Assembly (NCBI GenBank): GCA_963855995.1 | Contig: OY979716.1 | Location: 122,946,237-123,010,236, forward strand | Origin: Muricea muricata | Lineage: Eukaryota; Cnidaria; Anthozoa; Malacalcyonacea; Plexauridae | Direction: 5' to 3' | DNA: 64,000 nt | Shown here: piece by piece, positions 29 through 15,300 of the stretch | Numbering within the stretch: the first letter of the stretch is position 1 | Layout: each line of letters opens with the position of its first letter | Made by a program: the position numbers and the translations under genes | Notes under the pieces: model-generated | Told to the model about the DNA's origin: nothing | Database searches by the model: none | The model's input: the letters and a program-made list of their open reading frames with translations, nothing else

Positions 29-370
29 ACATCAATGAATGCTGGAATACTTGTGCTTGCCCCTTTGGCCAAATATGTAGCAACGTTCCAGGTTCATATG
101 AGTGTAGGAATGAAACCCAAGGTATTTTTATTTACTATATTTACTACGACTAGATCTAAAGTGTACTTTCGTTATGGCTTGCCCTTTTGTCACATTATTC
201 TAAATGTCTAAATTTTTTTTCCATCCCTTTTTCATATATTTACTTCGTACCACTTTTGTATTCACTTTTAGAAGATCTATGCCATGAAAATGGTGTCCGT
301 CATATAATTAATGGTACGACTGAATGTTTCTGCAAACAAGGATACTACGGCAACGGAATAAATTGTACAG
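29..370 (+). CDS. A/B EGF pair 1 (exons 29-121 and 272-370)
   Basis: Exon A follows TTTTTAG and ends before GTATTT; exon B follows CACTTTTAG and ends ACAG before GTATG. A has five cysteines (C-x3-C-x-C-x5-C-x8-C); B has four (C-x14-C-x-C-x10-C). A ends NETQ instead of the usual NATQ, which keeps an N-x-T sequon. B reads CHENGVRH, with Gly where most copies have Ala. Confidence 0.85.
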
Positions 371-3300
371 GTATGTTGGAAATATAAATGGTTTAATGAA
401 TGTGTAAGTGTAATGGAATTCTGTTGAATATCTCAAATTATAAAATTGCCAAATTGACAATGTTCTAACAGACAGTTTAAATCAGAGGATGTGCTAACAT
501 CTGATCACTTTAAATTACATAGCTGTTCTCAATAAAAAACTCATTATTTCTTTTACTGCATGTATCTCAGACTGTATAAATTACTCGATCAAACTCGCTT
601 ATGATTTGGTTGAATAAAATCTTCTAAACTATTGAAAAAAAATTTTGTTGGTTGCAGACATCAACGAATGTTGGAATTCATGTGCATGTCCTGTTGGCCA
701 AATATGTAGCAATGTTCCAGGTTCATATGAGTGTAGGAATGCAACCCAAGGTATTTTTATCTACTTTATTTACTACAACTAGATCTAAAGTATTTTTCAT
801 CATGGCTTGCTCTTTTGTCACATTACTCTAAATGTCTAAATGTTGTTTTTTCATAACTGTGAAAAGATATGCTTGGATATTTTTGTACAACTTTTTTATT
901 CACTTTATTCCAGAAGAAGCATGTCATGAAAATGCTGTCCGTCATGTAATTAATGGAACAACTGAATGCTTCTGCAAACAAGGCTACTACGGCAACGGCA
1001 AAAATTGTACAGGTATGTTGAAGATAGAAACATTTTAATCCATCCACCAGTTTCAATTATTTAGATGTCTGTAGTGTAAACATGTCAATTGTTAAAGTTC
1101 TAACAGTCAAGCCTTAACGTGTTATCAGAGGGTGTGCTGACATCTAGACTTAAAATTACAAACCTGTTCACGACTCTCGAAAAAAATCCAAGCTCATTAT
1201 TTGGTTTACTTCAGTCTCAGACTGTATGAATTATTTTAGAAACCTCGCTTGTGTTTTCGTGATTATGTTGAATTAAATATTTTCATAGTTACTAAATTTA
1301 AGAAACAACTTTCTCATAATTTTTAGATATCAATGAATGCTGGAATACTTGTGCTTGCCCCGTAGGCCAAATATGTAGCAACGTTCCAGGTTCATATGAG
1401 TGTAGGAATGCAACCCAAGGTATTTTACCTACTCTATCTACTACCAATAGTTCTAAAGTATTCTTTCGTCATGGCTTGGTCTTTGTGAAATTATTCTAAA
1501 TGTGTAAATCTTTCTTCCATCCTTTTTTTCATACATTTACCTCGTACAACTTTTATATTCACTTTTAGAAGATCCATGTCATGAAAATGCTGTCCGTCAT
1601 ATAATTAATCGTACGACTGAATGTTTCTGCAAACAAGGCTACTACGGCAACGGAATAAATTGTACAGGTGTGCTGAAAATATAAATGCTTTGATGAATAT
1701 GGAAGTGTAATTGAATTCTATTGAATATCTCCAATTATAAAATTACCAAATTGACAATGTTCTAACAGACAGTTTAAATCAGAGGATGTGCTAACATCTG
1801 CATCACTTTAAATTACATAGTTGTTTTCAAGAAGAAGAATTCACTATTTGTTTTACTGCATGTATCTCAGACTGTATAAATTACTTCATCAAACTCGCTT
1901 ATGATTTGGTTGAATAAAATTTTTTAAAATATTAAAAAAAAACTCTGTTGGTTGTAGACATCAACGAATGTTGGAATATTTGTGCATGTCCTGTTGGCCA
2001 AATATGTAGCAACGTTCCAGGTTCATACGTGTGTAGCAATGCATCCCAAGGTATTTGAATCTACGATTTTTACTACGAATAGATCTAAAATATTCTTTCG
2101 TCATGCTTGGTCTTCTATCACATTATTCTGAATGTCTGAATGTTCTTTTTTCATAACTGTGAAAAGATGTGCTTTGATATTTACTTAAATTGTACAACTT
2201 TTGTATTCACTTCCAGAAGATGCATGTCATGAAAATGCTGTCCGTCATGTTATTAATGGAACAACTGAATGCTTCTGCAAACAAGGCTACTACGGCAATG
2301 GCAAAAATTGTACAGGTATGTTGAAGATAGAATCATTTAATCCATCTACCAGTTTCAATTATTTTAGATGTTTGTAGTGTAAACATGTCAGTTGTTAAAG
2401 CTCTAACAGACAAACCCTAACGTGTTATCAGAGGGTGTGCTGACATCTAGACCACTTCAAATTACAAACCTGTTCACGACTTTGTAAAAAAAACCAAACT
2501 CATTATTTGGTTTATTTCAATTTCAGACTGTATAAATTATTTTATTATCCTCGTTTGTGTTTTTGTGATTTTGTTGAATTAAATATTTTCATATTGATTT
2601 GAAGAAACCAATTTCTTATCATTTTTAGACATCAATGAATGCTGGAATACCTGTGCTTGCCCCTTTGGCCAAACATGTAGCAACGTTCCAGGTTCATATG
2701 AGTGTATAAATGCAACCCAAGGTATTTCTATCTACTATATTTACTACGACTAGATCTAAAGTATACGTACTTTCGTCATGGTTTGCCCCTTTGTCACATT
2801 ATTCTAAATGTCTAAATGTTTCTTCCATCCTTTTTTCATATATTTACTTCGCACAACTTTTATATTCACTTTTAGAAAATCTATGCCATGAAAATGCGGT
2901 CCGTCATATAATTAATGGTACGACTGAATGTTTCTGCAAACAAGGCTACTACGGCAACGGAATTAATTGTACAGGTATGCTGAAAATATAAATGCTTTGA
3001 TGAATGTGTAAGTGTAATGGCGTTCTGTTGAATATCTCCAATTATAAAACTGCCAATTTGACAATGTTCTAACAGACATTTTAAGTCAGAGCATGTGCTA
3101 ACATCTGCGTCACTTTAAATTACATAGCTGTTGTCAATAAGAAAAATTCACTATTTCTTTTACTGCATGTATCTCAGACTGTATAAATTACTTCATCAAA
3201 CTCGCTAATATGTGATTTGGTTGAATAAAATTTTCTAAACTATTGAAAAAAAATTTCTGTTGGTTGTAGACATCAACGATTGTTGGAATCCATGTGCATG

Positions 3301-12300: not shown

Positions 12301-15300
12301 CTTGGAGTGTTAAAATGACACTTTGTGAAAGATTTTTATTGATGTCGTGTTAAATTAGCACCGAAAATGGGTGTTAAAATAACGCTTTTGCTTAACACAA
12401 CTACTAGGTGTCATTCTAACACCAGTCGAGGTGCTATTTTAACACCATAAAATTAACAGTGTAGGAATACCATATAAGGAGGAGTACATGTAAACAAGAA
12501 GAAAGCAAGCTGCCCCATTTGTACTAAGATATAGATTTAGCAAAATAAAGAACAAGAACATTACACCTCGCTTGTGTGTATTTTCGTGATTATGTTGAAT
12601 TAAACATTTTCATAGTTACTAAATTTAAGAAACAACTTTCTAATAATTTTTAGATATCAATGAATGCTGGAATACTTGTGCTTGCCCCGTAGGCCAAATA
12701 TGTAGCAACGTTCCAGGTTCATATGAGTGTAGGAATGCAACCCAAGGTATTTCTACCTACTCTATCTACTACCAATAGTTCTAAAGTATTCTTTCGTCAT
12801 GGCCTGGTCTTTTGTCAAATTATTCTAAATGTGTAAATCTTTCTTCCATCCTTTTTTCATATATTTACTTCGTACAACTTTTATATTCACTTGTAGAAGA
12901 TCCATGTCATGAAAACGCTGTCCGTCATATAATTAATGGTACGACTGAATGTTTCTGCAAACAAGGCTACTACGGCAACGGAATAAATTGTACAGGTATG
13001 CTGAAAATATAAATGCTTTGATGAATGTGTAAGTGTAATGGAATTCTGTTGAATACCGCCAATTATAAAATTGCCAAATTGCCAATGTTCTAACGGACAG
13101 TTTAAATCAGAGGATGTACTAACATCTGCATCACTTTAAATTACATTGCTGTTCTAAAAAAAAACTCATTATTTCTTTTGCTGCATGTATCTTCGACTGT
13201 ATAAATTACTTCATCAAACTCGCCTATGATTTGATTGAATAAAATCGTCTAAAATATTAAAAACAATTTCTGTTGGTTGTAGACATCAACGAATGTTGGA
13301 ATCCATGTGCATGTCGTGTTGGCCAAATATGTAGCAATGTTCCAGGTTCATATGAGTGTAGGAATGCAACCCAAGGTATTTTTATCTACGATATTTACCG
13401 CGACTAAATCTAAAGTATTCTTTCGTCATGCTTTGGTCTTCTGTCACATCATTCTAAATGTCTGAATGTTCTTTTTTATAACTGCGAAAAGATGTGCTTT
13501 GATATTTAATTTGTACAACTTTTACATTCACTTCCAGAAGAAGCATGTCATGAAAATGCTGTCCGTCATGTTATTAATGGAACAACCGAATGCTTCTGCA
13601 AACAAGGCTACTACGGCAGCGGCAAAAATTGTACAGGTATGTTGAAGATAGAAACATTTTAATCCATCCACCAGTTTCAATTATTGTAGATGTCTGTTGT
13701 GTAAACATGTCAATTGTTAAAGTTCTAACAGACAAGCCCTAACGGGTTATCAGAGGGTGTGCTGACATCTAGACAACTTCAAATTACAAACCAGTTCACG
13801 ACTTTCTGAAAACCCCAAACTCATAATTTGTTTTAGTTCAATCTGAGACTGTATAAATTATTTTATAAACTTCGCTTGTGTTTTTGTGATCATCTTGAAT
13901 TAAATATTTTCAAATTAAATTGAAGAAACAAATTTCTCACAATTTTTAGACATCAATGAATGCTGGAATACTTGCGCTTGCCCAGTTGGCCAAATATGTA
14001 GCAATGTTCCAGGTTCATATGAGTGTAGGAATGCAACCCAAGGTATTTTTACCTACTATATTTACTACAACTAGATCTAAAGTATTCTTTCATCATGGCT
14101 TGCTCTTTTGTCACATGTCTAAATGTCTAAATTTTTTTTTCCATAACTGTGAGAAGATGCGCTTCGATATTTAATTTGTACAACTATTATATTCACTTTC
14201 AGAAGAAGCATGCCATGAAAATGCTGTCCGCCATGTTATTAATGGAACAACCGAATGCTTCTGCAAACAAGGCTACTACGGCAACGGCAAAAATTGTACA
14301 GGTATGTTGAAGATAGAAACATTTTAATCAATCTACTAGTTTCAATTATTTTAGATGTCTGTAGTGTAAACATGCCAGTTGTTAAAGTTCTAACAGACAA
14401 GCCCTAACGTGTTATCAGAGGGTGTGCTGACATCTAGACAACTACAAATTACAAACCTGTTCACGTCTCCGTAAAAACCCTCAAACTTATTATTTGTTTT
14501 ACTTCAATTTCAGACTGTATCAATTATTTTATGAACCTCGCTTGTGCTTTTGTGATTTTGTTGAAATAAATATTTTCATATCAATTGGAAGAAACCAATT
14601 TCTCATAATTTTTAGACATCAATGAATGCTGGAATACCTGTGCTTGCCCCGTTGGCCAAATATGTAGCAACGTTCCAGGTTCATATGAGTGTAGGAATGC
14701 AACCCAAGGTATTTTTATCTACTGTTTTTACTACAACTAGATCTAAAGTATTCTTTCGTCATGGCTTGCTCTTTTGTCACATTACTCTAAATGTCTAGTT
14801 TTTTTTTTCATAACTGTGAAAAGATATGCTTTGATATTTACTTTGTACAACTTTTATATTCACTTTATTCCAGAAGAAGCATGTCATGAAAATGCTAACC
14901 GTCATGTTATTAATGGAACAACCGAATGCTTCTGCAAACAAGGCTATTACGGCAACGGCAAAAATTGCACAGGTATGTTGAAGATAGAAACATTTTAATC
15001 CATCTACCTGTTTCCGTTATTTTAGATGTCTGTAGTGTAAACATGCCAGTTGTTAAAGTTCTAACAGACAAGCCCTAACGGTTTATCAGAGGGTGTGCTG
15101 ACATCTAGACAACTTCAAATTACAAACCTGTTCACGACTCTCTGAAAACCCCAAACTCATAATTTGTTTTAGTTTAATCTGAGACTGTATAAATTATTTT
15201 ATGAGCCTCGCTTGTGCTTTTGTGATTTTGTTGAATTAAATGTTTTCATATTAATTTGAAGAAACCAATTTCTTATAATTTTTAGACATCAATGAATGTT

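Follow-up and report, generated by a model that had tools for sequence, protein, structure and literature searches.

EGF-like domains contain six cysteines paired 1-3, 2-4 and 5-6, and they are usually treated as six-cysteine folds that stand or fall together. The tandem domains of NELL2, uromodulin and fibrillin keep six cysteines, laminin-type EGF domains have eight at fixed spacing, and EGF domains without one disulphide occur in malaria surface proteins.

Fibrillin hybrid domain 1 derives in part from a cbEGF domain and has nine cysteines paired 1-3, 2-5, 4-6 and 7-8, with an unpaired surface cysteine proposed for intermolecular bonding (PMC3306419). PMC9080433 describes transmembrane mucins as built from a SEA domain, EGF, a transmembrane segment and a cytoplasmic tail. 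Octovafibrin, from octopus egg tethers, is a tandem EGF array of 29 repeats with a mechanical role, and different passages of the source conflict on whether the C1-C3 bond is mechanically the least or the most important (PMC10336842). An indel within ordinary EGF domains is reported in PMC11673550.

The window analysed here is a stretch of 64,000 nucleotides from the cnidarian Muricea muricata. It contains 13 exons of a type that we call A, with five cysteines, and 12 intact exons of a type that we call B, with four, all of phase 1-1 and arranged as 12 A+B pairs followed by a thirteenth A exon at 15286-15378. Exon joins throughout were read from splice signals and phase. With the exon borders drawn initially, AG precedes and GT follows every exon of the 25 but one; at the eighth B exon the usual acceptor reads AA, and the next AG lies 3 nt further on, in frame. 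A Gypsy-type LTR element lies outside the protein, yet divides the array in two. The features of the array are as follows.

29..121, + strand, A exon, window copy 1 (5 Cys)
272..370, + strand, B exon, window copy 1 (4 Cys)
658..750, + strand, A exon, copy 2
914..1012, + strand, B exon, copy 2
1327..1419, + strand, A exon, copy 3
1569..1667, + strand, B exon, copy 3
1958..2050, + strand, A exon, copy 4
2217..2315, + strand, B exon, copy 4
2629..2721, + strand, A exon, copy 5
2876..2974, + strand, B exon, copy 5
3270..3362, + strand, A exon, copy 6
3527..3625, + strand, B exon, copy 6
3939..4031, + strand, A exon, copy 7
4182..4280, + strand, B exon, copy 7
4565..4657, + strand, A exon, copy 8
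4810..4905, + strand, B exon, copy 8 (acceptor AG set 3 nt downstream, in frame)
5144..12564, + strand, Gypsy-type LTR element, within the intron that follows copy 8 (target-site repeat 5-6 bp)
12654..12746, + strand, A exon, copy 9
12897..12995, + strand, B exon, copy 9
13283..13375, + strand, A exon, copy 10
13538..13636, + strand, B exon, copy 10
13950..14042, + strand, A exon, copy 11
14203..14301, + strand, B exon, copy 11
14616..14708, + strand, A exon, copy 12
14874..14972, + strand, B exon, copy 12
15286..15378, + strand, A exon, copy 13, the array's last (A17 of the whole gene)
15534..15572, + strand, decayed relic of a further B exon (local score 51 against B exons; 200 shuffles <=27)

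Every A exon in the window has cysteines at positions 5, 9, 11, 17 and 26, every B exon has them at positions 4, 19, 21 and 32, and the cysteine columns are identical across all 18 A and all 18 B exons of the whole gene. Aligned to an EGF domain, B covers C2 to C6, with C1 absent and C3 replaced, these two being canonical disulphide partners, while A covers C1 to C4 with one extra cysteine and ends before C5-C6, which form another canonical disulphide. None of the 36 exons has the six cysteines of an EGF domain (four of six in B, four of six plus one extra in A). The alignment agrees with the first-pass annotation, which had read each A+B pair as five plus four cysteines, an odd total of nine and a non-standard EGF, with A running from C1 to C4 plus an extra cysteine and stopping before C5-C6; that the C1 and C3 absent from B pair with each other was not part of that annotation. 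Its proposal of EGF descent is backed by Pfam: B alone scores 31.6 bits against EGF_3 (PF12947; cut-off 28.5), A alone scores 26.8 bits against positions 1-29 of EGF_CA (PF07645), just below the cut-off of 27, and a joined four-exon stretch is above the cut-off for both. This profile homology is common to B and A, but each half here is without one of the three disulphides and A has an extra cysteine. The calcium-binding motif [DN]-x-[DN]-[EQ]-C plus C-x-[DN]-x4-[YF] is found in 17 of 18 A exons, the exception having D for E; by inspection, B exons do not have a calcium-binding EGF start. Scans of Pfam and the prokaryote-oriented NCBIfam gave no family specific to the nine-cysteine pattern, as the annotation had supposed.

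Fibrillin hybrid domain 1 is like the module in its nine cysteines and its partly cbEGF build (PMC3306419), but its first half is derived from a TB domain and has a Cys-Cys motif. A TB or hybrid domain was rejected because neither the Cys-Cys nor the Cys-Cys-Cys motif of fibrillin hybrid and TB domains occurs in any of the 36 exons, which have no adjacent cysteines. A laminin-type EGF was rejected on the nine cysteines per pair and the absence of a laminin EGF family among the Pfam matches. When the lost EGF parts were sought in the A-B introns, the 80 nt after 12 A exons and before 12 B exons scored about as shuffles do against 16 EGF exons, in a test of low power where A exons also fell within the shuffle range and only some B exons exceeded it.

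The array runs on upstream of the window, opening with a B exon after a Calx-beta exon and closing with an intact A exon, so that the whole gene has 18 intact B and 18 intact A exons. Searched in six frames over 104 kb, exon profiles built from the same 36 exons that they score recovered 18 A exons (E <= 2.8e-18) and 18 B exons (E <= 1.1e-21), the next-best matches being the gene's ordinary EGF exons (E 0.0015 with the A profile and 4.5e-4 with the B profile). At the C3 position, none of the 18 intact B exons has a cysteine: 15 have Arg, and Ser, Gly and Leu occur once each. The loss of the cysteine is constant and the arginine is not fixed. The Cys-to-Arg change that had been described as fixed does hold in 12 of 12 window B exons, which are tandem duplicates and not 12 independent observations, but fails gene-wide.

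No stop interrupts the reading frame between the first exon of the window and the terminal stop codon, and the exons predict a Calx-beta, EGF, SEA, transmembrane protein.

16408..16527, + strand, complete EGF exon with six Cys, immediately following the array (Pfam-tested)
18972..39599, + strand, span with another 13 complete EGF exons, all of phase 1-1, starting at 18972, 30669, 31317, 32059, 32718, 33059, 33478, 33826, 34245, 34596, 37835, 38563 and 39477 (three of the 13 submitted to Pfam, and matched)
42850..42987, + strand, complete cbEGF exon upstream of the SEA domain (Pfam-tested)
44116..45440, + strand, SEA domain, encoded by three exons (44116-44231, 44463-44500, 45256-45440; Pfam PF01390, E 1.7e-6, 28.6 bits, cut-off 26.4)
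49886..50020, + strand, membrane-proximal complete EGF exon (Pfam-tested)
51917..52025, + strand, putative transmembrane exon (hydrophobic stretch judged by eye)
53340..53472, + strand, cytoplasmic tail exon with stop codon

The combination of SEA, EGF and transmembrane segment that marks transmembrane mucins is present (SEA and EGF by Pfam, the transmembrane segment by inspection), and a cytoplasmic tail is likewise shared with those described in PMC9080433. In contrast to those mucins, the gene combines a Calx-beta exon with a long EGF array, and no Pro/Thr/Ser-rich repeat region was seen in the exons read, which do not include the gene start.

The first-pass annotation took A+B as the repeat unit. 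The ends of the array, its divergence and its matches to solved structures favour B-A instead, and B followed by A is well supported as the more likely unit, giving 18 B-A pairs. The array starts with B and ends with A. Its outermost B and A exons differ from the rest to the same degree (pS 0.705 and pN 0.265 for B; pS 0.696 and pN 0.263 for A), as expected for one old B-A unit, whereas the B exon following the first A has a pS of 0.447 against 0.696 for that A, so that divergence matches inside B-A and not A-B. Against PDB sequences, a B-A profile gave 26 matches at E <= 0.01, the best at 5.3e-13, and an A-B profile gave three, the best at 2e-5; the B-A E-values sum repeated stretches, and the best single stretches shown score 29.4 bits for uromodulin and 25.5 bits for NELL2. 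B-A aligns with the EGF-cbEGF tandems of NELL2 (the best match) and uromodulin over positions 3-59 of 64 and with that of fibrillin 1 over shorter parts, whereas the A-to-B joint gives three weak matches. The intron that follows the second B shares homology with the B-to-A introns of the array (score 136; at most 38 in 200 shuffles), and the 160 nt upstream of this exon are unlike the A-to-B introns (score 22; shuffle mean 21.4). The outermost B and A are flanked by introns unlike either class, and the outer unit is therefore tied to the rest by its exons only.

A different register, possible but unlikely in our judgement, would make A then B a single nine-cysteine EGF domain, with C1-C3 and C2-C4 from A, C5-C6 from B, and the C2-C4 of B as a closed loop between C4 and C5. 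Every EGF bond could then be satisfied with one cysteine left over, and of the two kinds of intron the A-B one is shorter, at 148-169 nt (16 units), compared with 284-322 nt for the other (15 units, the LTR-bearing one excluded). One of the three A-B profile matches (NELL2, E 0.0016) spans the joint, covering positions 9-63, although solved structures fit this profile poorly compared with the B-A profile and divergence agrees within B-A pairs only. The intron after the last A resembles A-to-B introns (score 89; shuffles <=37), and together with the relic B beyond this A it indicates that the array formerly ended in B; no intact B remains there, however, and an A-profile search upstream of the first B found no A exon, though a decayed one could escape detection.

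With B-A as the unit, the whole is probably a two-domain unit repeated 18 times in tandem, whose disulphide-trimmed EGF halves would form a Ca2+-stiffened, hinged stalk. B would be an EGF domain trimmed at its start, with C1 and its partner C3 lost and the C2-C4 and C5-C6 bonds predicted to remain. A would be the following calcium-binding EGF domain trimmed at its end, with C5-C6 lost, C1-C3 and C2-C4 presumably retained, and the extra cysteine near C2. The joint from B to A, C6-[T/S]-D-I-[N/D]-[E/D]-C1, is that of an ordinary calcium-binding EGF tandem. The two trimmed ends meet at the A-to-B joint, a new joint that has neither a C5-C6 hairpin nor a predicted Ca2+ site and usually has an N-glycosylation sequon. 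Rigid Ca2+-bound B-A elements linked by flexible glycosylated hinges would then make up a stalk that holds the amino-terminal region of the membrane protein, which includes a SEA domain, off the cell, and unequal exchange would have changed the length of the stalk. Octovafibrin has a long tandem EGF array in common with this gene, but its repeats have three disulphides each and none is scored as calcium binding, unlike the array here (PMC10336842). The spare cysteine of each unit may be free, or bonded to a neighbouring unit or chain. An extension of this proposal, in which B-A is a distinct nine-cysteine module of two domains that lost two canonical EGF disulphides, each as an entire bond, and the spare cysteines of the 18 units form a regular ladder of inter-unit or inter-chain bonds, making the array a covalently bundled Ca2+-dependent stalk, strikes us as quite unlikely.

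Purifying selection on A and B is clear. Within 16 units dN/dS is 0.125 for A and 0.150 for B, and compared with these units the outermost A has 0.159 and the second B 0.143; in the window, pN/pS is 0.048/0.290. Tree lengths are 1.45 and 1.44 for introns and 0.45 and 0.47 for exons. At the nine cysteine codons all nine inferred nucleotide changes are silent, with a chance of about 1e-7 when parsimony changes are taken as independent, gene conversion is ignored, and the last A and first B are left out. The outer B and A retain all nine cysteines despite a pS of about 0.7. The earlier suggestion that conservation reflects function and not decay therefore stands, at a dN/dS of 0.12-0.16 across copies. 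That A and B are cassette exons, skipped or alternated to give a protein with one type or a variable number, is very doubtful: any exon could be skipped without a frameshift because all are of phase 1-1, but A and B are similarly constrained and intact copies keep their splice signals, a pattern compatible with some skipping. A relic of ordinary EGF repeats, alike merely through recent duplication, would suit the modest intron divergence within each class and the one decayed B, but is largely refuted, and extremely improbable, given the low pN relative to pS, the silent cysteine-codon changes and the intact cysteines of the outer pair.

Two adjacent EGF halves, each without a whole disulphide, have been kept by selection in 18 copies. 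As a natural experiment, the array could show which bonds an EGF domain can do without and how new modules originate when exon borders shift inside a domain, and it bears on whether a repeat can stably carry an odd cysteine.

By title and start of abstract, none of the literature matches listed describes the module, in a search with subscription papers and preprints mostly outside its scope. Outside this genome, a B profile run against genome and viral contig collections and an A profile run against viral contigs only gave no confirmed relatives, as expected for an animal gene. Within the genome, a B query gave at least 20 matches at E <= 0.001 (a lower bound, with 150 of 375 candidates scored), 18 of them the array's B exons and the other two ordinary six-cysteine EGFs. 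The outer A query gave 19 matches at the same threshold (106 of 106 scored), 18 of them the array's A exons and the remaining one an EGF without the extra cysteine. On the best reading, at the sensitivity used and with the B count a lower bound, the trimmed module appears restricted to a single gene of its genome.

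The array of alternating A exons (trimmed EGF exons with five cysteines) and B exons (trimmed EGF exons with four) is genuine: an unusual way of rearranging EGF domains, kept by selection. The first 15.4 kb of the window (contig C1:122946237-123010236 of the 453-Mb genome) contain 13 A exons, each 93 nt long, and 12 B exons that are intact and 99 nt long, all in phase 1-1, with one of these B exons being 96 nt if an acceptor 3 nt further on is taken. In the eighth window B exon (4805-4812), AA stands at the usual acceptor AG, and taking the AG that lies 3 nt downstream preserves the reading frame. 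An A exon encodes 31 residues with cysteines at 5, 9, 11, 17, and 26, and a B exon encodes 33 residues with cysteines at 4, 19, 21, and 32. The cysteine counts of the first-pass annotation, like its alignment of both exons with EGF, were correct. Reading 40 kb upstream extended the array beyond the window by five A and six B exons, giving 18 A and 18 intact B exons in the gene, strictly alternating, with B first and A last.

Landmarks of the array (window positions; negative values are upstream)
Ends near -13929, start not placed: Calx-beta exon, 5' of the first B exon
-13354 to -13256: first B exon of the array, from the upstream reading
-11219 to -11133: first A exon of the array, two codons shorter than the other A exons
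-3007 to -2909: second B exon of the array, followed by four A and four B exons and then the window copies
15534-15572: relic of a further B exon, after the last A exon

Both C1 and C3 of the standard EGF are missing from 18/18 B exons, and the constant feature is the absence of these two cysteines. A fixed Cys-to-Arg change had been proposed at the C3 position, but the residues there run Ser, Gly, Arg, Arg, Arg, and Leu along the gene before the 12 window copies, which all have Arg; a description of the module should no longer include a fixed Arg. The C1-C3 bond of EGF is established, and C5 and C6 are bonded to each other. Because B lacks C1 and C3 and A lacks C5 and C6, each a bonded pair, the losses are of whole disulphides, one per half. 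The C1-C3 disulphide of EGF is described in PMC10336842. The extra cysteine of A, at position 9 or 11 (the other being C2), is present in all 18 A exons, including the outer one, which has 59-67% identity to the others.

These features have been maintained by selection, as previously argued. The 66 pairwise comparisons of window units give a pS of 0.290 and a pN of 0.048, with intron differences of 0.18 and 0.22, and none of the eight changes that parsimony places in cysteine codons of the window set replaces cysteine. In a set of 16 units, A has a dN/dS of 0.125 and B one of 0.150; measured against those units, the outermost A has 0.159 and the second B 0.143. Intron trees are 1.45 and 1.44 long vs 0.45 and 0.47 for exons, a roughly threefold difference. 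In a reconstruction from 17 A and 17 B exons, leaving out the last A and first B, all nine parsimony changes in the nine cysteine codons are silent, which, assuming independent changes, has a chance of 7e-8 at the intron ts/tv of 0.94, or 2e-7 with stop codons excluded. Twice in this reconstruction, the Arg codon came to encode a different residue.

The repeated unit had been taken to be A+B, but B-A is better supported and more probable. The array starts with B and finishes with A. The first B and first A are equally far from the rest (pS 0.705 and 0.696, pN 0.265 and 0.263), with the second B at pS 0.447 and pN 0.092. The array's B-to-A introns have a homologue between the second B and second A (score 136, shuffles <=38), and the stretches 3' of the first A and 5' of the second B are unlike A-to-B introns (scores of 22 for each, against shuffle means of 22.7 and 21.4 and a positive control of 292). 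Three other stretches, one following the first B and two preceding the first A and the first B respectively, match neither class (28, 22, and 22, within shuffles), which counts against B-A or is neutral. A five-sequence B-A profile matched 26 PDB sequences at E <= 0.01, led by NELL2 (E 5.3e-13, positions 3-59 of 64; whole-sequence E-values add up repeated stretches), while an A-B profile, also of five sequences, matched three, the best at 2e-5 over A alone. On the side of A+B, the relic B follows the last A after an intron resembling the A-to-B class (score 89, shuffles <=37), and one A-B profile match (NELL2, E 0.0016) spans the A-to-B joint.

In the B-to-A joint, C6 is separated by a single residue, Thr or Ser, from the Asp with which the Ca2+ motif begins, and one residue is the usual spacing there in cbEGF tandems. 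B and A may form a rigid Ca2+-dependent joint, and the loss of A's C5-C6 hairpin and of the beginning of B would make the A-to-B connection a flexible hinge. The array could serve to space out the amino-terminal portion of a membrane glycoprotein. The spare cysteine could be free, or bonded between units or chains, and such bonding is proposed in PMC3306419 for the spare cysteine of fibrillin hybrid domain 1, which has nine cysteines.

Joined from the beginning of the window array to the tail exon, all exons stay in an open frame; the gene's start was not located. An 83-residue piece of the Calx-beta exon matches Pfam PF03160 (E 1e-6). Downstream of the array are 16 complete EGF exons with the six-cysteine pattern, the last between a three-exon SEA domain (PF01390, 28.6 bits vs a cut-off of 26.4) and the transmembrane exon, and the tail exon has its stop at 53472. 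N-glycosylation sequons follow C4 in 16/18 A exons and occur in B at N14 (17/18) and N31 (18/18). With one B exon and the outer A exon as queries (E <= 0.001), no other such exons were found in the genome among the candidates scored, a non-exhaustive 150 of 375 for B; three further matches were ordinary EGFs. Pfam and NCBIfam scans found no family specific to the A/B cysteine pattern.

By intron length (about 150 and 290 nt vs about 163 and 313 nt) and sequence, the array copies in 1-15378 fall mostly into two alternating classes, as if a two-unit block had been amplified; exceptions are window copy 8 and the final copies. At 32718-34718, two ordinary EGF exons form a block that is present three times with almost no differences, a second recent expansion within the gene.

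Other elements in the window
5144-12564: Gypsy-type LTR element in an array intron, matching reverse transcriptase and RNase H
27608-29149, minus strand: open frame of 514 residues, with a sub-threshold OTU-like match
57458-62620, minus strand: neighbouring gene, matching FHA at 62438-62620 and G-patch at 58576-58920

The Gypsy-type element has a target-site repeat of 5-6 bp, and by inspection one LTR copy is split by about 2.5 kb in which short 'ttaacacc'-like repeats abound. The region at 27608-29149 looks, by inspection, like a decayed transposon. The neighbouring gene resembles AGGF1.
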